Source: Sialis fuliginosa (Eukaryota > Arthropoda > Insecta > Megaloptera > Sialidae). Taken from it: a stretch of DNA of 64,000 bases. The notes beneath the pieces were generated by a model. The model saw only the letters and a list, made by a program, of their open reading frames with translations. It was not told the origin of the DNA and did not search any database. The position numbers and the translations under genes were made by a program. The DNA is taken from NCBI GenBank assembly GCA_961205875.1, contig OY540821.1:14446001-14510000 (forward strand), read 5' to 3'. The stretch's first letter is position 1, and each line of letters begins with the position of its first letter. Shown here piece after piece: positions 389 through 59,915 of the stretch.

Positions 389-1363
389 AACACTTACACG
401 CTAAATTATAAAACTATAATACTTCTATGTCTTATTTTCTTTTATTTTGGTCGATATTTGTATGACGAGTTGAAGTTCACTGCAGGAAATTTCACTAAAA
501 AATTTCGAATTTTTTATTTCATTAAAAGTATGTTTATTGTATAGAAAATGACGCGAAAAGTAGACTGTTTCAAACCGCAGGTCTGTATCTCAAACCGTTC
601 TCGAGATATAGCCTCTCAAAGTTTCAGTTTTTTCAAATTGTTGGAGAAAAAAGGCCATAACTTTTGAACGCGTGGTCGGAATTGATTTTAGTTGACGGAT
701 TTGGAATCAGCGTGTCAAAATCTATATATTGACATATATAATACCTTAAAACTCGAAAAAAAAATCGAAAAAATTCAAAGGGGTATACCTTAAAAAAATG
801 TCGATTTTTGACCAAATTTTTTTTGTCGAATTTTAAAGTATTATACATGTCACTATATAGATTTTGACACGCTGATTTCAAATCCGTCAACTAAAATCAA
901 TTCCGATCACGCGTTCAAAAGTTATGGCCTTTTTTCTCCAAAAATTTGAAAAAACTAAAACTTTGAGAGGCTATATCTCGAGAACGGTTTGAGATACAGA
1001 CCTGCGGTTTGAAACAGTCAACTTTTCGCGTCATTTTCTATACAATAAACATACTTTTAACGAAATCAAAAATTCGAAATTTTTTAGTGAAATTTCCTGC
1101 AGTGAACTTCAACTTGTCATACAAATATCGACTAAAATACAAGAAAGTAAGACGTAGAGGTATTATAGTTTTATAATTGAGCGTGTAAATTATATTAAAT
1201 GTTATTTTTGACTTAAAAAAATGGTTAAAATGTTTGGGTTGTGCATAAAGATGAATATTCTAATAACATTTTTAAATTATTTATTAACTGAAAACACAGA
1301 TTTGTATTAATTTACTCATAAAGTAAGGGAAGTCCTGCTTCCATGGACGTTTCGCCATTGCTC
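389..1363 (+). mobile_element. Large fold-back (inverted-arm) element, copy 1
   Basis: A left arm (about 389-745) and a right arm (about 838-1190) are inverted copies of each other, including the block GGCCATAACTTTTGAACGCG and its complement. They are separated by an unpaired core of about 90 bases. A non-inverted tail (about 1191-1363) ends in CCATGGACGTTTCGCCATTG. Read on the other strand, the tail tip in sister copies is CAGTGGCGAAGCGTCCATGG, which resembles a hAT terminus. No matching left terminus was found, so the class is uncertain. The core is inverted relative to copies 2 and 3. The ORFs in the arms are by-products of the palindrome. Confidence 0.8.
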
Positions 1364-3265: not shown

Positions 3266-3480
3266 ACTAGCTGATACTCGTGACTTCGTTCGCGTTATAT
3301 TATAATAAGATATATATGGTTCACGTGGAATTTAGGTTAGGTAGGAACTGTCACCCATAAATCTGTATCTCAGAACAAAACGATTTTCACGTTATTACAA
3401 ATTTTGCAACGAGCCATAATAACGGAACTCCGTTAGAAATTCTCCTTTTATAATTTTACTAGGGTTATACGAGCTTAATT
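3266..3480 (-). mobile_element. Helitron-like 3' end, reverse orientation
   Basis: Reading the - strand, the sequence ends ...AACGCGAACGAAGTCACGAG...ATCAGCTAGT. It matches in layout the better preserved end at 13195-13392 (CACGCGAACAAAGTCCGCGG...ACAGCTAGT). A CTAG terminus shortly after a small GC-rich hairpin is typical of Helitrons. The interior to about 3480 is degraded and its far limit is uncertain. Confidence 0.45.
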
Positions 3481-4749
3481 CCTCACCTATGTTTGAGCTA
3501 GACAATACTAAATTAACTTAATACATAATGGCATAAGTAATTAACAACAGATAAAACATATATATTTTTATTGTTAACAACCAATTTTTACACTCAAATT
3601 CAAAATGCAAGCTTTTATGTTCTCCTGAAAAATTGGCGTAATGTAACTTATATTTGCCTGATTCTGAGGTACACTAATAAGAAGAAGAAGGTTAGGTAAA
3701 ACAGATTTCTGTTATAATATTCGATAAAACAGGTTGCGTGTACAATTGTCAAACTTCCATTTTTTAATCTAATAAATATTTCGCGATACAATTTTCGGGA
3801 TATTATAAGACCTATGTCCTTTCCCAGGATACAAGAATCTGTGAAAAGGTAACAAATAAAGAGACATATTTTAAAAGAGTTTGAATGTATATATTTCAAA
3901 CTATTTTTCCGGTTTAGTGATTATCACAAAATATAGGTAATGCACATCTTTTGTATATACAATAATAATTTTAAATTTCATGATTGTAAATTTCACCATC
4001 TTGGCTGTAGATAGTTCACAGACATACAGATATACAGATGTAATTGAAATAATGGTCGTACTCGATTAAAAATGTATAATTCCGTTTAGTCTTCTATTAA
4101 TTTTTTTATGATTTCTATACGTTATTATTTAAAATATATAAGTACATAAAAATTTTAAACGAATAAAAAAAATATAATAAATGATAATAAAAAAGTATAA
4201 TATATTTATCAAAATGGATTAAGTTAAATCTCTTTCCACAAATAAATAAATATCTAAAAATATGCATAACAATGTACAAAACCCAAGTGGTCGGACTTGT
4301 ATATATTTATATATATAATTCCGAATGACTATCGGGCGGGAAGTTTTACATCTGAATATAACCATAACGTTAAAAAGAAGCTGGCCTTATTGTTAAAGTT
4401 ACAGGTTGGAATCTAGACTATTGAATCGCTTATTGTCACACATCAAATCCGGTGTGAGAAACAGAATTCTTAAAGCGCGACTTTTCGACGTTTCACGGTA
4501 TCATGAAGTTAGGTATACAATTAATATAAGCACTGAATTTTTGTTCATACCAGTGCAAGTGGGTTATTTTATAACTGACACCTGTCTAAGATAATATGCC
4601 AGTGTTGGACAATACTAAATTATAAATATTTCTTGACATTTGATAATTGCCATTACCGTATCATAATCTATAAACACTTAACTGCAAATTTGATGACAAT
4701 TGGCTAATAGGTGTCAAAATGGTGGACATTTAAACTAATTATTAATTAT
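3481..4749. other. AT-rich stretch with minor repeat fragments
   Basis: Holds a weak echo (CGGTTTAGTGAT...GCACATCT...GTATA, about 3911-3960) of a sequence at 39370-39420. No gene was recognised. An open frame at about 4406-4594 is not supported by splice sites or similarity. Confidence 0.45.
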
Positions 4750-11130: not shown

Positions 11131-11415
11131 ATTTCAGTGATAATTCATTAACAAAGAAACGTCTATTTGGAATTATTTTTTGTAATTCAAAAAAACTGCG
11201 TAAAAAAATTATATCGACATAAAAACTAATAAAAAATAAATATGGCGTAGTCTTTTTTACCTACATGTATGTAAAATCGCAATTTCTATTTATGATATGC
11301 GTATAATACAAAATTGCATACATCAAAATAAATTTCAACTACGTACAAAGTTTCTAGACAAGCATCAGCATAATAGCATAACAGCTTCAACTCAATATTG
11401 ATTTAAACTGTCTAT

Positions 11416-12734: not shown

Positions 12735-12905
12735 CAAGTCTTGTGGCTTCCACGGTGATCTTGATATGGATCTTGGCTTCAGGATGTAAGCCGCGTTGAT
12801 TTGATCGTATTATCGGCCAAAGTTTCGTCACACATTGCAGTGGACATCTTCAGGGCTCTTCTAAGCACTTTTAACGCGAATTACACCAAGAAGCCAAGAT
12901 TCATA
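12735..12905 (-). repeat. Repeat carrying a hammerhead-like core
   Basis: The block is bounded by inverted ATCTTGGCTTC (about 12769) and GAAGCCAAGAT (about 12890). Within it lies the motif described separately at 12814-12858. Part of the block recurs at 54120-54200, and another rearranged part at 11055-11130. Confidence 0.55.
12814..12858 (-). ncRNA. Hammerhead-ribozyme-like motif, copy 1
   Basis: Read on the - strand: GCC, then CUGAAGAU, then a helix GUC-CAC/GUG-GAC with a UGCAAU loop and one bulged U, then GAAAC, then after UUU the complement GGC. This matches the order of a hammerhead: stem I, CUGANGA, stem II, GAAA, minimal stem III, stem I. Against the canonical core there is one extra U after CUGANGA. 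The minimal stem III (AC/UU) looks broken in this copy. Activity is inferred only from layout and covariation with the other copies. Confidence 0.45.
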
Positions 12906-13156
12906 CGTATATTTATGTCTCGTTGAGATTATTGCCCAGAAATCTCGATTGTGATTTTTTTTCTGATCATTTCTTCTCTCGATATGCAGAGATATATTTT
13001 TTATAAATATTTAATACTAATTCATAAAGAAATCATACAAGTGTTGTATTTTTTGCATAAATTTATCTATTTGTTAAAATAGAGAAGTCGTGAGTGACTG
13101 ACTCATCAACACCCAGCCCAAACCCTTGTGAAATTGTAGAGATGTTTTCTTTTTAT

Positions 13157-13177
13157 GGGGGGGGGGGGGGGGGGGGG
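13157..13177 (+). repeat. Run of 21 G
   Basis: Uninterrupted G homopolymer immediately upstream of the Helitron-like repeat. The window has other long G/C runs at 15215-15225, 28994-29008, 34887-34898 and 35977-35991. Confidence 0.95.
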
Positions 13178-13194
13178 CAGAAAATATCTTAATA

Positions 13195-13392
13195 TGGTAC
13201 TGATTATTATCTGTCTGTCTGTATTATTTTTTCACGGCTAAACCGCTTAACCGATTTTGATGAAATTTGGCAGAGAGATAGCTTGAATCCTATGGAAGGA
13301 TATAGACTACTTACTTTTTATCCCAAAAATAGATTAGATAAAAAAATACAAATTCCACGCGAACAAAGTCCGCGGGTACAGCTAGTAAATTT
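13195..13392 (+). mobile_element. Helitron-like non-autonomous repeat with CTAG end
   Basis: Begins in CTGTCTGTCTGTATT and runs through AAACCGCTTAACCGATTTTG, ATGAAATTTGGCAGAGAGAT and TTTTTATCCCAAAAATAGAT to a GC-rich hairpin (ACGCG...CGCGG). It ends GTACAGCTAGT. A hairpin a few bases before CTAG is the Helitron 3' signature. The family is common in insect, especially lepidopteran, genomes. The 5' part is cut off by the G run. Confidence 0.6.
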
Positions 13393-19828: not shown

Positions 19829-22800
19829 ATGAATAATGACAGTTATTCGCAATTCAGATCAGGAAAAGATTTAAGTTTATTTAATGGTATTTAACGAAAA
19901 ATAAAAACAAATAATTGTACCCAAAATATAATCTATTTAAATAAGGTAATCATTATAATAGTAATATTATTATAGATAAAACTAGAAATTATGTTAAATA
20001 TACTAATTTAAAATTTATGTAACCTTAAATTTTTGTTTTGTTAGGCACATTCGAATAACCTTAACCGTTTTTTTTTGTGTTTTTTTTTTTTTGCTTGACT
20101 TGATAGTCTGGATCGACCCTTATGATATTAACATTTAATTTTATGAAATCATTTATTAAAATGTTAAATTGTTTATTATTATTTTGTTGCTGTTGAATTT
20201 TTTGTTATTTATATAAATCTCACCCCTTTTACCTACTATCCAAAATAGAGATGGGATGATTAAAAAATGTATATAAATAATAATTTTATCATAACAAAAT
20301 GAATAAATTAAAATATGTTATTTCCATTTTTTATAGTACCTACAATCATGCTGCATCGTTTGAAAGTAGAATCATGTTGTAGACTTTCTGATTTACATAC
20401 AGGAGCTTTAATACATGCAACTGTGTCTATGGTAAGTTAAACATTTAAGAATTGTTTTGTATATTATTTATTTTTTTGTACTATTCGTGTTCTAAAATAT
20501 GAAAAAATGTATATTTTTTTATCATATAACAAACCTTGTTGCTCTCTGAGAAATACCTTAACAATATCCTCATAAAATAGAAGTACTTAAGACCATATTT
20601 ATATATGTAAAATAAATAACATATTTTTTTCTAGATAACTGGAGTTGTTTTTTTGTTGAATACTTATAGTCTCGATATATTTGGTAAAATATTTTTTTTA
20701 TTTTTCATATTTTATATTAAATAACTTTTTATGTTATTTCTGATATTAATATAGCATTTTATTTTTTAAGAGGACGATATAAAATTGATAAAATATGGTG
20801 TTTTCGGATATGTAACAATTACGTCATTGATAACAGCTGTTGCTGTTTGGTATGTAAGTAATATATTTTTAATTTTAAAATTTATTTAAGATATTTAAAC
20901 AACATTTGGGGATAAGATTTATATCGATTTAAAATAACCTTAGTATATGTTAAAAAATACAATCAAAGCGTCGTAAAAAAATAAGGCAACCGTGCATTTT
21001 GAATATGCAGCGATTTTTTAGGGGTTTCGTAGGGGAGTCGGTCGTGAGTTTTCGGGATTGTGAATGATGCCTTTTTGAAAATAAGGGTGCAATTAGTTTT
21101 TTTGATTATCTCCGTAACTGCGAGTCTGACAAAAATTTTGTAGAGCATTTTTGTAGGTATACCGATTCTCTACAACTGTTATATGTAACTTCTTAGATCA
21201 AAGATTTTTGACAAAGATTTGATCATATTTCTTTGATAAAATACGAGATTTTGTTCTATTACACTACATAAAATATTTGATAATATTTTCTCAGTGTATT
21301 ATCTAGGGATATTATCTTCTTTTTTGGTGTATTTTGATTATCAGTGCGTGGATGTTCGTTAGTTGACGCGATCGAGGTTTGAATTTACAACTGTGTATTG
21401 CAGTTTTCAAGCTTTTTCTTTTTAAAATAAATTCTTATATTTTTATATAGTAACTAAATGATTCTACGTCTAATTTTCTTGTATTTTAGTGGATATTTGT
21501 ATGACGAGTTGAAGTTCACTACAGGAAATTTCACTAAAAAATTTCGAATTTTTGATTTCGTTAAAAGTATGTTTATTGTATAGAAAATGACGCGAAAAGT
21601 TGACTGTTTCAAACCGCAGGTCTGTATCCCAAACCGTTCTCGAGATATAGCCTCTCAAAGTTTTAGTTTTTTCAAATTTTTGGAGAAAAAAGGCCATAAC
21701 TTTTGAACACGTGGTCGGAATTGATTTTAGTTGGCGGATTTGAAATCAGCATGTCAAAATCTACATAATGACATGTATAATACTTTAAAATCCGACAAAA
21801 AAAATTTCGTCAAAAATCGACATTTTTTTAAGGTATACCCCTTTGAATTTTTTCGATTTTTCGCGAAATTTTTTTTCTCGAGTTTTAAGGTATTATACAT
21901 GTCATTATATAGATTTTGACACGCTGATTTCAAATCCGTCAACTAAAATCAATTCCGACCACGCGGTCAAAAGTTATGGCCTTTTTTCTCCAAAAATTTG
22001 AAAAAACTAAAACTTTGAGAGGCTATATCTCGAGAACGGTTTGAGATACAGACCTGCGGTTTGAACAGTTCAACTTTTCACATCATTTTCTATACAATAA
22101 ACATACTTTTAACGAAATCAAAAATTCAAAATTTTTTAGTGAAATTTCCTGCAGTGAACTTCAAATCGTCATACAAATATCGACTAAAATACAAGAAAAT
22201 AAGACGTAGAGGTATTATAATTTTATAATTGAGCGTGTATATGAATTATAAATGCTATTTTTGATTATTGTTAAAATGTTTGAGTTGCGCATAATATTTT
22301 TAAATTATTTATTAACAGAAAACACATATTTGTATTAATTTACCCATAAAGTAAGGGAAGCACTGCTTCCCCTGCTTTCATAGACGCTTCGCCACTGATT
22401 AAATGCAAAAAAAAATATACACTATACAGTATAAAAACATAGATGTAGATATCTAATAGATCAAATAATTTCTAGGAATTTCTCTCCGTTATAAAAGCAG
22501 CGGTTATTATGACAATTATCGCATTTATTTTACTAATTCTAAGTATGGCGTTTGATATTACATTTATGCTAAAAAGAGAATATGGTCCTTTTTACATAGC
22601 AATGGAAGGTATATTCGTTGGCGGTTTTTCAGGTACCTACATTTTTTTCATTTGTACATATATTTTGGTAGAACTACATAGAATAAGTATAGATTCTTTT
22701 TTAAATAATCTTAATAATAATTAATCTTATGTTTTCGTTTACGGTTTATTGAATGGTTATATCAAATATTCTGAAATACCTTTTCCACTATACGAAAATT

Positions 22801-36308: not shown

Positions 36309-37170
36309 TTTATTTTTATTTTTATTTTTTAACAATTAATCAAACTAAAGAAGAGTGAAGTCAATTTTGAATTTTAAAAACTCCAAGCCCTGTTCTAAAT
36401 AAAATATAAATCCCGTATTCATGAAATACAAAAATTATAATTAGGAACAAATATACTCAAAGCAAGATTTTTAAAACAATTTAAATTTTTACAGTTTTTT
36501 ATCCCAATTTGTAGTTGTTAGAACTTTTTGTTTGTTTGTTGTTACAAACAATTTGTAACAAAGTTTAAACAATTAATAATGTATACCTACTGGCGATATT
36601 ATTAATGTTCTGTCTACCCTTAAAACTTTTTATTATCTCTATTATTTATCTCTCGTCTCATAATCAGTCATTTGTAATAATTGTAATGGAGGTTAGAAAA
36701 AACAGAATTTTTGTTTTAAATTTATTAAATCATTACGAAATTTTTCTAAAATATAAATACCAATAACAAATAACAATGATAGTGAATTATACGAAAGAAA
36801 ATATTATATCTAAAATGAAAAGCATGCGTGAGTGAAAATTGATAATGATACGTTTTCGTGCCGATTTTTCTTTTCAAATATTCTATACCTGTAATTTTAA
36901 GATTGATGTTATTTGAAATCGAATATGATTCTTCAGTTTAATCATTCAGTCATATCAGAGAGTGAGAAAGAAAGAAAATACAATTCATAAATAATAAAAA
37001 TCAAGTAGAAAATTTAAAATACAAAAATAAATAAAAGTCTTTTTTATCGTTGGAACAAAATCAAGAAATTTGATATTTTTGTTATAAAGTAGTATTCAGT
37101 TACATTCCACAACCGCTATATGTAGTGAAAAACCGTCTTGCAAATAAGTATTAACAGTATTTTTTTAAAT
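36309..37170. other. No recognised feature
   Basis: AT-rich with (ATTTTT)n-like and TTTG-rich tracts. Confidence 0.45.
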
Positions 37171-37510
37171 AATAGACGAAGGCGGTCTCGAAGGTCTTCG
37201 GGCATTAGATAGTCTTAAAGATAATGGTGTAAGCTATATTTAAAAAAAAACTGGAGTCTGCTCGATCGCGCCAAGCTGACATATTAACTATTCAACTTAT
37301 TTGTTAAATTTTCAATTTAAATTTCTTAATAATAGCCGAAGGCGCACTCGAAGGTCTTCGGGCATTAGATAGTCTTAAAGATAATGGTGTAAGCTATATT
37401 TAAAAAAAAAACTGGAGTCTCCTCGATCGCGCCAAGCTGACATATTAACTATTAAACTTATTTGTTAAATTTTCAATTTAAATTTCTTAATAATAGCCGA
37501 AGGAGGTCTC
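37171..37510 (+). repeat. Tandem repeat, 160-161 bp unit, 2.1 copies
   Basis: Units begin at 37171, 37331 and 37492 (the last partial), each with AATAG(A/C)CGAAGG. They share GGTCTTCGGGCATTAGATAG, TCTTAAAGATAATGGTGTAA and CTCGATCGCGCCAAGCTGAC. Units 1 and 2 differ at few positions, pointing to recent duplication. Confidence 0.9.
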
Positions 37511-42420: not shown

Positions 42421-42533
42421 ATTCAATTTTTTTTTGGCTAGCTCCAATAATAACAAAGTTGGCAATGATCACAAATATGAATAATTATGATAGCTGCCAT
42501 TGTAACTTAGGAAAAGCATAAATTGTTCAATTA

Positions 42534-42898
42534 CAGTACAACCTCGATATAACAAAACTGAAGGGAAGTAGAAAATATTCGTTACAGTGAAGTTTGTTAT
42601 ATAAAGGTTAGGTTGGTCTACAATTCGTTATAACATGGTAAGAATGTAGCGATGTCTATTTTTTTCGTTGTAGGATTCTCGTTTACATACTTAATGATTT
42701 CTCGTTTCTTTACGACGGTTAAGGAACACATTTTTGTTTTTCAACCATTGCAATTTTAAAACTACTTGTTGACAAATGTATTCGTAATATAAAGGTATAT
42801 TTTGCATTAGCTCTTACGGGCAGTTCTAGGGGATTTCGAAAAATTTGTTAAATCGAGGAAATCGTTATATTGAGGCTCGTTATATTAAGGTTACACTG
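42534..42898 (-). mobile_element. Pogo/Tigger-like MITE with transposase scrap, copy A
   Basis: Ends CAGTACAACCTCGATATAAC and ...CGTTATATTAAGGTTACACTG, with TA at 42532-42533 and 42899-42900. It is the inverse of 55248-55671, sharing the tract that encodes the transposase N-terminal piece in that copy, here on the - strand and with altered codons. Confidence 0.82.
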
Positions 42899-43280
42899 TA
42901 TTATTAAAATTTTAGAATTAGAGGTTGGAGTATGAAACATCCATGGGCATATAGTATAACAATAACTATAATAATATAAAAATATGTGTATGACAATCCT
43001 GCAAAGTTTAATTGCAAATACATACAGTAACATAATATTATTATATTGTTATTAATAACGAAGTTATACCGTATCCTCTTGCACAACATGTCAATTTTCC
43101 ATAAATACGTAATACGAAAAGCAATAACACATGATATAAGATATAGTATATACATACATACAATATGGTATATACATACATGGATAAATCTATTTTATGT
43201 GTTACGAGAAATCCCATATCCCTCTCGCGCGCGCATACATATTTACACGTAATAAAGTCTCTCACAGAGTAAGATTCCAT

Positions 43281-46890: not shown

Positions 46891-47260
46891 AGTGATTTTT
46901 GTTTTTAAATTACACATTATTCTTGTTATTGTTATTAAATAGTTCATATAATTATTCGTAGATATCAAAACTTTATTTGTATGGCAAACCTGGCTGGAAA
47001 TAATGAAATCCATGTAATTTTTCAATTTGTTCACACAACATTAACAACGGCTCACCCGACATGCTCACCACACACAGCCCACCCATTATTAAAAATATGT
47101 TTAAATTACAGGTTATATTAGTAAAACAATTGTTTTAATAAGGGAAGCATATTTTGTCAAAATGTAGGTAAAAACCGTTTTAACAATGGGATTATCGAAT
47201 TCTCTCCCTCCTATTAACAAAAAATAATAATATGAAACACCTTAAGTTCAAGCTTTTACT

Positions 47261-48168
47261 TATTTTCTTGTATTTTAGTCGATATTTGTATGACGAAGTG
47301 AAGTTCACTGCAGGAAATTTCACTAAAAAATTTAGAATTTTAGATTTCGTTAAAAGTATGTTTATTGTATAGAAAATGACGCGAAAAGTTGACTGTTTCA
47401 AACCGCAGGTCTGTATCTCAAACCGTTCTCGAGATATAGTCTCTCAAAGTTTTAGTTTTTTCAAATTTTTGGAGAAAAAAGGCCATAACTTTTGAACGCG
47501 TGGTCGGAATTGATTTTAGTTGACGGATTTGAAATCAGCGTGTCAAAATCTATAAAATGACATGTATAATACTTTAAAATTCGACAAAAAAAATTTCGTC
47601 AAAAATCGACATTTTTTTAAGGTATACCCCTTTGAATTTTTTCGATTTTTCACGAAAAATTTTTTTCCTAGTTTTAAGGTATTATACATGTCATTATATA
47701 GATTTTGACACTCTGATTCCAAATCCGTCAACTAAAATCAATTCCAACCACGCGTTCAAAAGTTATGGCCTTTTTTCTCCAAAAATTTGAAAAAACTAAA
47801 ACTTTGAGAGGCTATATCTCGAGAACGGTTTGAGATACAGACCTGCGGTTTGAAACAGTCAACTTTTCGTGTCATTTTCTATACAATTAACATAATTTTA
47901 ACGAAATAAAAAATTCGAAATTTTTTAGTGAAATTTCCTGCGGTGAACTTCAACTCGTCGTACAAATATCGACTAAAATACAAGAAAATAAGTGTAAAAT
48001 TAATATTAAATAATTTTTTTTTGGTTAAAATGTTTGATTTGCGCATAAAGATGAATATTCTAATAATATATTTAAATTATTTATTAACTGAAAACACAGC
48101 TTTGTATTAATTTGCCGCTAAAGTAAGGGAAGCACTGCTTCCCCTGCTTCCATGGACGCTTCGCCACT
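47261..48168 (+). mobile_element. Large fold-back element, copy 3
   Basis: Left arm about 47261-47585 and right arm about 47670-47993 are inverted copies. The core is oriented as in copy 2. The tail runs to ...CCATGGACGCTTCGCCACTG at 48168. It is the best preserved copy of the tail tip. Confidence 0.82.
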
Positions 48169-50092: not shown

Positions 50093-50118
50093 GACGACGT
50101 TTCGGCCATCTTCAGGTC
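50093..50118 (-). ncRNA. Hammerhead-ribozyme-like motif, copy 3 (minimal)
   Basis: The - strand reads GAC, CUGAAGAU, GGCC, GAAAC, GUC, GUC. Stem I is GAC/GUC, stem II is only the self-complementary GGCC with no loop, and stem III is AC/GU with no loop. Such a form could only close as a dimer. It keeps the same extra U as the other copies. Confidence 0.4.
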
Positions 50119-51487: not shown

Positions 51488-52200
51488 TAGAGCTGGGCGC
51501 GGGCCGTGAATTTTTCGGGTCACGTTGGGTCACGGCCGTGACCCGACGTGACGTGAGCGATTTTCAAATATTGAATCGTGAGCGGGCGTGATCGTGAGTC
51601 AAATTAAAACAATCGGGCGTGACCGTGCGTGAGTACATTTTTCTCGTGCGTGAGTTCGTGAGTATATTTTGAAGATAATTTTTTTATAAACTTATTTGAT
51701 CTTTTTTTTAATATCTGAACTATTAATGCATAAATATAATAATGTTTTAAAACGAATTTTGACATTAAAACATATAGTATGAAAAATAAATGTCATTTTA
51801 GGAAGCACTTTCACATGGTCAGTATTGCCAACTATATCAGAACACCAAAAAAAGATTTAAAAATGCATTGTAGCTTTATTTTCTTATTGTTTTGTTTGTA
51901 ATTTCTTTTACTAGAATGCAGTTTAGAAGAAATAATATGAATATAAAATACACACAATATATTGCACGTAAAAACATTAATTTTCATCATTTCAGAATTT
52001 AATTTACAACAATTACATTAAATCGGGTCACGCGCGTGACCCGTCGTGCGTGATCGGGCGTGAGTAAAAAAATAGTATTCGTGAGCGTGCGTGATCGTGA
52101 ATACTTTTTTTGTAACCGTGAGTGAGCGGGCGTGACTAAAAAATTTTCTCTCGTGAGCGTGCGTGATCGTGAGCAAAAATTACTCACGCGCCCAGCTCTA
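51488..52200. mobile_element. hAT-like element, 713 bp, GTGAGCG-rich, 8-bp target duplication
   Basis: The 14-bp perfect end TAGAGCTGGGCGCG is mirrored at the right. GTAGGAAT is duplicated exactly at 51480-51487 and 52201-52208. Just inside both ends lie arrays of a degenerate GTGAGCGTGCGTGATCGTGA motif, running in the same direction on both sides. Each side also has a perfect palindrome: GGGTCACGGCCGTGACCC (51527-51544) and CGGGTCACGCGCGTGACCCG (52024-52043). The centre is AT-rich and non-coding. The arrays may be transposase binding sites; that is inference. Confidence 0.88.
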
Positions 52201-54124: not shown

Positions 54125-54200
54125 TGGGTCACATCGATTTGGTCGTGTTATCGGTCAACGTTTCGTCACACATTGCAGTGGACATCTTCAGGACTCTTCT
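54125..54200 (-). repeat. Repeat carrying a hammerhead-like core
   Basis: Shares ATCGATTTGGTCGTGTTATC-type flanking sequence and the core with 12735-12905. Confidence 0.55.
54154..54196 (-). ncRNA. Hammerhead-ribozyme-like motif, copy 2
   Basis: The - strand reads GUC, CUGAAGAU, helix GUC-CAC/GUG-GAC with loop UGCAAU and one bulge, GAAAC, GUU, GAC. Compared with copy 1 the stem I pair changes from GCC/GGC to GUC/GAC with both sides altered, keeping pairing. The minimal stem III is AC/GU. Confidence 0.45.
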
Positions 54201-54424
54201 AAAAGTGCGGTTAACTATCTCGTGTTCCCCACTTCTCTACATACCAACACTTAATATTTTCAGAATTTAACTCTTATTCTGTTAAGCTAGTTAAAACATC
54301 ATTTTGATTAATTTAGAAAACGTTAGTATTTCAACATTTATTTACTGGATAAAATGAACCAAAATGTATTGTTCATTTAAATAAAAAATATGCATCATTT
54401 GTACGTTTTTAAACAGCGAATTTG

Positions 54425-54699: not shown

Positions 54700-55245
54700 T
54701 GTTCGTTATGAGTTATTCAGATGAAAAAAAAATAGGATTTTTTATTGTTTTTAGAAACAATTAAACATATTAATAGTTGAAATTTTAATTGGCGTAAGGG
54801 GCAACCCACAACTTTTCAGTACGAGAAAAAAAAAATTTTAGAGAAAAAAAAATTTTGGAAAACAATTTTTAATTGTTCGTATATGAATCCGATTGACGTT
54901 AAGAGAGAAAATGTTTAAATTTAAAATTATTAACGGTCTCATACGAAGTTTCATATAAAAATCATGTCTATGCCTCGAAAAAATAGGAATTTTAAGAGAA
55001 AGATATTGAAATTTTAAATATACCAATCGATAAAGAAAAATTATTTTCACATTTTTGTCCCTTAGATTATAAATGGAATTTAACTAATTTCACTTGTTCT
55101 AGCGAAATTATATAAGTATGCTAAGCTTGTGAATTAAAGGAGCTCCCACAGAACAATTAAAAATACAAAAGAATGATTACAAAATAGCATTAAAGTTTGC
55201 ATTTGTAAAATAACGAATAAAAAATACTGATTTATTATTTCTATA
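54700..55245. other. No recognised feature
   Basis: AT-rich, possibly intron if the preceding donor is real. Confidence 0.4.
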
Positions 55246-55247
55246 TA

Positions 55248-55671
55248 CAGTGTAACCTTAATATAACGAGCCTCAATATAACGATTTCCTCGATTTAACA
55301 AATTTTTCGAAATCCCCTAGAACTGCCCGTAAGAGCTAATGCAAAATATACTTTTATATTACGAATACATTTGTCAACAACCTCTTTACAACGAATTTTT
55401 CGACAGGTTCAGATACGTTAAATTTTTCGTAAGACAATCGTTATTGTTTTTTTGCTGTTTGTCACTGTTGCTAGTTTTAAAGTTGCAAGGGGTGAAAAAC
55501 AAAAAAGGTGTTCCTTAACCGTCGCAAATAAACGAGAAATCATTAAGTATGTAGACGAGAATCCTACAACGAAAAAAAATAGATATCGCTACATTCTTAC
55601 CTGTAACAAATTACTTGGTATAACGAATATTTTCTACTTCCCTTCAGTTTTGTTATATCGAGGTTGCACTG
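55248..55671 (+). mobile_element. Pogo/Tigger-like MITE with transposase scrap, copy B
   Basis: Ends CAGTGTAACCTTAATATAAC and ...GTTATATCGAGGTTGCACTG, flanked by TA (55246-55247 and 55672-55673). An internal frame (55452-55715) includes KRCSLTVANKREIIKYVDEN, which resembles the N-terminal helix-turn-helix (CENP-B type) of pogo/Tigger transposases, then runs out into the right end. The catalytic domain is missing, so the element is an internal deletion derivative. Confidence 0.85.
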
Positions 55672-55673
55672 TA

Positions 55674-58518: not shown

Positions 58519-59755
58519 TGCAACAATGTGTTTTCTTATTCTTTACATTTTTAAACATCCAAGATCAGGACTACAGTCGCGTCCGCGGGGATTCTAACCT
58601 CATTGCAGAGTTTTGTCTGGGGTGCCATTTTTGAAAATGGCATTTTGCATATATAACCTTAAAACTAAAAAGAGTTAAGAAATATGCTTTTCGTTAAAAG
58701 TTTGTTCTATTTTTTTTTCGGTTACAAAGTTCTCTGCTTATTATTATTATTTTTGAATTATTAATATCCATGCGGATGGAATTCTATATGAGAATATCTT
58801 ATTAATATAAATAAACATTTTTACTCTTATGTACTTGAAAATCTATAACTAATTTTAACTCATAAGAAAAATGTTTTTATAATTTTCATGGCCTTTTCTA
58901 ATTAATATCAGCTGTCCAAAGTACTAAAATTTATTTTTTAGGTACATTTATAACACATAAATTTAATAAAAAAATACAGGATCTGTAATTGAATCAACTT
59001 AATTTTGTTTTAGTCATAATAAACAAAAACTGTTTTTAAAATCATGAAATATGCAATAAAACGCCTATTTTAATTTTTAAATAATACTACAGTAAATACT
59101 AGATAATTTTAACTTTTTGGTAAAAGTTTATTTTTTGACCCGTTTGAAATTGTTTGATTTCATCGACCCTCAAACATTTTGGTATCTCCACTGCATCAAT
59201 GCAGACAACAATACCTGCATGCATTAAAAACAAGTACCTAACGTTAAAACGCAAGCAAACAAGTAAGTAAGAAAGTTAGTAAAGACTAATACCTACTGCT
59301 TCTGTTTTTGTTATCATTTGAACGGCGTAAATTGAAAACAACGTTGTTACGTAGATTTTAAATTTCCCGCTTTGATGAGTGTTTCCAGTGTTTTACACCA
59401 GGTGGCTCTTTGTAAGCATCGGCAGTGTTTTGTTTTGCAGCATGTTTAATTAAGTAAATGAATGGTATCTTTTGATGTAAGTATGGTGAATGCTTAAAAT
59501 CTACAGCTAGGCCCTTTGTAACGTGTTTTCTCCTTGAAATTGTTTTTTGCCATGTTTTTGTTACTACAAAATGATGTGTAAATGTCTCTCGTTTTATGAG
59601 GAAAAATATCAGTACATACCTACATTTATATGTATAATATATGTATATAGTATATATGATAATAATATAATAGTAGTGACGTAAAATATAAATAAAAACA
59701 AACTTAATATGAATATTATTGAGATAACAACATCGTTCTCAAAAAATCTTTATTA
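58519..59755. other. No recognised gene
   Basis: Contains a perfect hairpin TGCCATTTTTGAAAATGGCA at 58622-58641. An acceptor-like TTTCCAG at about 59380 precedes a short open stretch, not convincing. Confidence 0.4.
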
Positions 59756-59795
59756 ATAGCCTGACGATGATTCTGTGAATCGAAAGCTTGCGATT
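59756..59795 (+). ncRNA. Hammerhead-ribozyme-like motif, copy 4
   Basis: The + strand reads AUAGC, CUGACGAU, perfect 5-bp helix GAUUC/GAAUC with loop UGU, GAAAG, CUU, GCGAU. Stem I pairs 4 of 5 positions. The minimal stem III is AG/CU instead of AC/GU, a compensatory difference from copies 2 and 3. The extra U after CUGANGA is kept. Confidence 0.45.
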
Positions 59796-59915
59796 ACCTT
59801 TTCTTAATTAAATTTTTTGACGTTTAAACAAACAAGTTTGTTTTTATAGTATATATGTATACAACGTGTCCTTTATACATTAATATCTTTTGTAAATTTA
59901 AGATTAGGTATAAAC

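Follow-up and report, generated by a model that had tools for sequence, protein, structure and literature searches.

Hammerhead-like motifs with one extra U in the core, probable relics of Penelope-like retrotransposons, in a contig of Sialis fuliginosa

Short hammerhead-like sequences scattered over a single stretch of insect DNA raise the question of whether they are remnants of a ribozyme or chance resemblances to one. We addressed this question in 64,000 nucleotides of the Sialis fuliginosa genome (assembly GCA_961205875.1, contig OY540821.1, positions 14,446,001 to 14,510,000), hereafter the window. Direct reading of this DNA, which is AT-rich, poor in genes and rich in repeats, found four short hammerhead-like stretches, all at the positions and on the strands given in an earlier note, which had taken them for small ribozymes of the kind found in Penelope-like elements and had pointed out one extra U in every copy. 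The extra base was confirmed at all four sites, where a single T follows CTGANGA and precedes the G-C pair that opens helix II. We consider it probable that the four sites are dispersed relics of a minimal type I hammerhead ribozyme of Penelope-like retrotransposons, most likely as solitary remnants.

The order of parts is the same in each copy (Table 1): CUGA(A/C)GA, one U, helix II and GAAA, with helix I enclosing the core. The CUGANGA and GAAA core with H17 is present at all four sites, and A9 is separated from helix II by the one U in every copy. Helices I, II and III are complete only in copies 2 and 4. The GGCC of copy 3, which lacks a loop, cannot close its own hairpin, so that pairing would be possible only between two molecules.

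Table 1. Positions of the hammerhead-like motifs and of the repeats around copies 1 and 2 in the window
Feature	Positions	Strand	Helix I	Core (C3)	Extra U	Helix II	GAAA	Helix III (no loop)	Predicted cut	Remark
Copy 1 motif	12816–12856	−	GCC 12854–12856 / GGC 12816–12818	CUGAAGA 12847–12853 (12853)	12846	12827–12845	12823–12826	one pair; second pair C.U	after U at 12819	
Copy 2 motif	54154–54194	−	GUC 54192–54194 / GAC 54154–54156	54185–54191 (54191)	54184	54165–54183 (6 bp + bulge)	54161–54164	two pairs, AC/GU	after U at 54157	strict descriptor match
Copy 3 motif	50093–50118	−	GAC/GUC	50109–50115 (50115)	50108	GGCC, no loop	50100–50103	two pairs, AC/GU	after C at 50096	
Copy 4 motif	59754–59796	+	two pairs 59759–59760/59790–59791, A.G mismatch, four outer pairs 59754–59757/59793–59796	CUGACGA 59761–59767 (59761)	59768	GAUUC/GAAUC 59769–59781 (five pairs)	59782–59785	two pairs, AG/CU	after U at 59789	strict descriptor match
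Copy 1 block	12798–12864	−								67 nt, motif inside; 62/67 identical to 54136–54202
Copy 2 block	54136–54202	−								67 nt; match to copy 1
Palindrome around copy 1	12766–12904	−								arms 12873–12904 and 12766–12797, 28 bp

The loose pattern CTGANGA..GAAA occurred five times in the window against 2.4 expected, and 10 of 100 shuffles reached five; by itself this count is no more than chance allows. A strict descriptor with helices I, II and III in Watson-Crick pairs found two sites, 54154–54194 on the minus strand and 59759–59791 on the plus strand, both with exactly one inserted base, and with zero, two or three inserted bases it found no site in the window. This descriptor had no match in 100 dinucleotide shuffles or in the reversed window, and with wobbles allowed it still found two sites, compared with a shuffle mean of 0.04 and a maximum of 1. 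When shorter helices were allowed in a softer scored scan, five sites with one inserted base scored at least 6 (0.27 expected), a number reached in none of 60 shuffles; the five were all four copies and 11338–11374. Without an inserted base, no site in the softer scan reached this score (0.23 expected), which is the chance level. The strict and soft descriptors were both designed with the claim of the earlier note already known, and the sites amount to three independent ones rather than four, because copies 1 and 2 are related. The site at 11338–11374 (minus strand) is a weak hammerhead-like match with one core mismatch and is probably due to chance.

One explanation is that only copies 1 and 2 form a true repeat, with copies 3 and 4 matching by chance. 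Comparison of copies 3 and 4 with copies 1 and 2, and with each other, gave no reported match at E 0.01, copy 3 has no foldable helix II, and the wobble descriptor yields about four matches per 100 shuffles. However, copy 4 fits the strict Watson-Crick descriptor that none of the 100 shuffles fitted, and the extra U occurs in both copies 3 and 4 while no insertion-free site passes. We regard chance as an unlikely, though not negligible, origin of these two copies.

The relationship of copies 1 and 2 rests on a shared 67-nt block, and no further match was reported when the 700-nt flanks on each side of the two were compared. By eye, the sequence GAAGCCA follows the block in both, 17 nt on in copy 1 and 11 nt on in copy 2. 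Two of the five differences within the block together turn the central pair of helix I from C-G into U-A, and the chance of some such double change was P 0.016 under random substitutions and 0.044 under transitions only; another of the five costs copy 1 the second pair of its helix III. For the compensatory changes proposed in the earlier note, the support within the window is mainly the one double change that separates copies 1 and 2 in helix I; the note put them more strongly than the window supports.

Copy 1 lies within a palindrome, the 3' arm of which abuts the conserved block while the 5' arm stops 8 nt short of it. The fold of 12757–12904 had an energy of −50.3 kcal/mol (z −5.06), with none of 200 shuffles as good, whereas the 111 nt folded around copy 2 contained no palindrome comparable to that of copy 1. 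The palindrome could be an extended helix I or the inverted junction of a Penelope insertion. A foldback element is present in three copies in the window (394–1188, 21463–22210 and 47242–48009), with arms of about 370–380 nt that are 91–95% complementary within a copy, and the copies gave sub-threshold matches to an Rfam microRNA family (MIR9563).

Helices I and II were both part of the minimum-energy fold in the 67-nt block of copy 2 and in 71 nt around copy 4. The fold of the copy 1 block retained both helices with extra pairs within the core, and in longer contexts (148 nt for copy 1 and 111 nt for copy 2) helix II was retained and helix I was replaced. The minimum-energy fold of copy 3 was not a hammerhead. 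Fold energies of copies 2, 3 and 4 were no better than those of shuffles, and among all folds only the long one of copy 1 (148 nt) beat shuffles in stability.

With the extra U in place, A9-U-G10.1 reads AUG in all four copies. The predicted cut follows the AUG by 26 nt in copies 1 and 2, by 11 nt in copy 3 and by 20 nt in copy 4, and the reading frames that begin at the AUG have 22, 18, 62 and 3 codons in copies 1 to 4, respectively. These sites could be read as the place where coding begins in Penelope-like ORFs whose protein sequence is conserved (M-S-T-A-M-C-D-E-T-L for copies 1 and 2), with an incidental likeness to hammerheads. The AUG does stand at the same place in all four copies, and the first ten codons are common to copies 1 and 2 save for one synonymous change. 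However, the shared block reaches 11 nt upstream of the core, the double change in helix I pairs a non-coding base with a coding base, and copy 4, for which no match to copies 1 and 2 was reported, stops at its fourth codon. We find a purely coding origin of the sites very unlikely.

A hammerhead origin, the reading that we prefer, can be compared with PAc (Poseidon), a Penelope-like element of Anolis carolinensis that has an ORF and a hammerhead described as tested in vitro (PMC11167929). As described there, the start codon of PAc lies at the beginning of stem II with C3 and G8 before it, and the cut falls 26 bp after it. Copies 1 and 2 match PAc in the spacing from AUG to cut, whereas copies 3 and 4 differ from it. 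PAc also sits in an element with an ORF, unlike the window copies, and it is known here by its description rather than its sequence; from the described geometry, we infer that PAc would have the extra U as well. Because the AUG and the 26-nt spacing in copies 1 and 2 are as in PAc, a hammerhead is compatible with the extra U. Loss of the PAc hammerhead is described as without effect on insertion in vitro, and a look for RNA-seq reads beginning or ending at the cut site is reported to have found none (PMC11167929).

The passages of the literature searched, in which the primary motif sets are known through citing papers, contain no statement of an inserted U in Penelope hammerheads. Insertions elsewhere in the core (after A6 or beside C3) are described as reducing activity (PMC3088659). 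In known hammerhead alignments, up to one or two inserted bases are said to separate A9 from helix II. Given insertions at this place in alignments, and the same U in predicted type I hammerheads of viruses (see below), a U before helix II is not disqualifying. A further comparison is a viroid hammerhead, probably that of chrysanthemum chlorotic mottle viroid, whose extra nucleotide would be an A at the foot of helix II. It would resemble the window copies in having one extra core nucleotide and differ from them in that this base would be an A rather than a U and in its viroid context. For a viroid hammerhead that the source leaves unnamed, one extra core nucleotide and weak activity are described (PMC11014351).

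We next considered the U in other genomes. Two scans of viral contigs for CTGANGATG..CGAAACGT(C/T) returned at least 120 and 23 stretches, with at least 112 distinct matches that had enough flank. Among the 112 matches listed, 15 had helices I, II and III of at least four pairs each, whereas a control in which the 3' part was swapped (200 swaps) averaged 1.07 and never exceeded 4; the 15 include close relatives (L081 and L092, and two in L161). Helix II had fewer than three pairs in 75 of the matches listed, and three of these still had helices I and III of at least four pairs. An initial viral scan with the end GACGAAACG had given 19 stretches, none of which was among the later three-helix candidates (score of at least 12, all loci).

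The U-inserted hammerheads from IMG/VR (L066, L125, L131, L139, L150, L161 and others) resemble the window copies in having CUGANGA followed by U, a G-C first pair of helix II and GAAAC. They are predicted to be type I with a closed helix III, mostly of at least four pairs, and a helix II of four to seven pairs, whereas helix III of the window copies is minimal. When the inserted base was left open, a viral scan found 15 stretches, 13 with T and two with G; the two G-inserted stretches read better as canonical cores. The 13 T-inserted stretches represent nine distinct motifs, and 12 of them, representing eight motifs, have full helices; the thirteenth (L077) has a mismatch in helix II. This proportion of T, with both G cases better read as canonical, points to a particular tolerance of U at this position. 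A comparable viral scan without insertion found 19 stretches, 13 with all helices of at least four pairs, including both G cases of the open-base scan, and six without. By these full-helix counts, the inserted U is about as common as the canonical core in the narrow GG..CCGAAACGUC subclass.

Rows of the viral set were also examined for pairing. In 15 of 20 rows, 205 of 210 cells were paired, against a shuffle mean of 159 and at most 173; L076, L114, L120 and L092 (duplicate motifs) and L082 (close to L066) were left out, and the counts are biased upward because the rows had been picked by a pairing descriptor, which makes the swap control the fairer test. In the MAFFT alignment A1, the 3' parts were misaligned because of the variable loop III, so that only helix II was counted from it and the rest was counted by script. 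Helix II had 100% of cells paired (versus 74.7%) and a covariation score of 0.70 (versus 0.18). Two of the five measures for this helix were not extreme: changes on both sides were matched in 112 of 500 shuffles and further pair types in 46 of 500.

The U-inserted viral motifs are likely located between genes. In 10 of the 20 U-inserted rows, a same-strand frame (at least 80 codons, called mechanically) ends 8–36 nt upstream, and in L030, L102, L131 and L139 the UGA inside CUGA is the stop of such a frame; many of the 20 rows are also overlapped by frames on either strand. The frame from the viral AUG is shorter than 70 codons in 17 of the 20 rows, has 115 and 538 codons in the L161 pair, and in L030 reaches the contig end after 159 codons. 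About 110 nt further on, each of the L161 pair has an in-frame AUG that is preceded by a purine-rich stretch (by eye). Because the AUG frames are mostly short, an account of the U as part of a start codon fails for most viral rows.

Predicted type I hammerheads can lie close together in these contigs. L150 has three in about 700 nt (about 3281–4042), two with the U and one canonical, and L161 has two, both with the U, a few hundred nt apart (12894–13322). Rfam reported none of these five, and nothing relevant in 13 viral loci at gathering scores or in five viral loci at E up to 1. A comparison by DNA similarity for phage relatives gave either four records whose short matches lay in regulator genes, or no record. 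A scan of bacterial and archaeal genomes gave nine stretches, of which eight lacked one or more of the three helices; the remaining one (L165:2449–2522), in a Paenibacillus zanthoxyli contig, is a predicted U-inserted type I hammerhead.

The earlier note had proposed an Rfam hammerhead search and a search for Penelope-like reverse transcriptase ORFs next to genomic copies, and both kinds of search were made within the window. The Rfam hammerhead models gave no match anywhere in the window at the gathering threshold or at E up to 5, and segments around copies 2 and 4 gave no hammerhead at E up to 10. We give this silence little weight because the predicted canonical hammerhead in L150 was missed as well. 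Ten stop-masked translations around the sites, each spanning about 15 kb, contained no reverse transcriptase or GIY-YIG domain (Pfam); they covered the three minus-strand frames at about 5–20 kb, the three minus-strand frames at 43.5–58.5 kb, and all three plus-strand frames and one minus-strand frame at 49–64 kb. In these ten stretches, a location of the motifs in a pseudo-LTR or next to a Penelope ORF for reverse transcriptase or GIY-YIG finds no support. The sole family listed in the domain scan was a weak CENP-B_N match at 55497–55577. An inverted repeat pair lies at 42532–42901 and 55245–55673, up to 99% complementary in parts, and together with the CENP-B_N match it is perhaps the remnant of a pogo/Tigger-type DNA transposon.

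Many metazoan genomes are described as containing thousands of minimal type I hammerheads, usually without the non-conserved part of helix III, that mostly lie scattered through non-coding DNA and sometimes within pseudo-LTRs of Penelope-like elements (PMC7761336). Such motifs are described from all available Penelope-like sequences (PMC6155905), and for one coral a count of over 6000 type I motifs of minimal or canonical form is given (PMC7229834). As far as the Penelope set of Cervera and de la Pena 2014 and of Lunse et al. 2017 is described in papers that cite them, the window copies share its core, a short helix I, a hairpin as helix II (in copies 1, 2 and 4), one or two pairs in helix III and non-coding dispersal. 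They differ from it in having no Penelope domain in the stretches scanned, and may differ in the extra U. The copies fit the published minimal type I motifs in core, helix III and dispersal; what may set them apart or falls short is the extra U, the absence of an element in the stretches scanned and the damage seen in copies 1 and 3.

Non-autonomous retrozymes, which give rise to small circular RNAs, could have left the sites in place of Penelope elements, and retrozyme-like repeats that contain type I hammerheads are described from insects and other invertebrates (PMC7229834). Retrozymes, however, are described as tandem repeats of about 150–400 nt with a helix III that is mostly stable in invertebrates (PMC7761336, PMC7229834), whereas no tandem array overlaps any of the four sites and their helix III is minimal. 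A retrozyme source is highly improbable. Tandem sequence occurs at other places in the window, as a duplication of 161 bp with 96% matches (37168–37503), and irregular CGTGAG/GCGTGA-rich repeats lie amid AT-rich DNA at 51542–52179.

Minimal Penelope-type hammerheads, as suggested in the earlier note, are the best reading of the sites, with the full descriptor matched only by copies 2 and 4 and no linked Penelope ORF found in the stretches scanned. If the copies derive from such elements, self-cleavage of the RNA would fall after nucleotide 17, where helix I has its base. Since helix III is no more than a palindrome of two base pairs (ACGU or AGCU), cleavage would require either a second ribozyme paired head to head with the first, the arrangement of tandem pseudo-LTRs, or assistance from the protein of the element. 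In an intact element, the extra U between A9 and helix II would create the AUG that starts the ORF. The copies in the window probably have no present function, since two of the four are damaged.

The viral motifs allow a broader proposal, which we put forward as speculative and on balance doubtful. The U between A9 and helix II may be a distinct, natural and widespread variant of the hammerhead core that has been little noticed, shared by Penelope-type elements of animals, in which it would also make the start codon and render self-cleavage and translation of the ORF mutually exclusive, and by type I hammerheads in viral, probably phage, genomes. The role of the minimal Penelope hammerheads is described as unknown (PMC7761336). 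If A9 and the first base of helix II double as the A and G of a start codon, one such role becomes testable. Were this true, cleavage would part the start codon from the ORF, a possible switch of the RNA from messenger to template.
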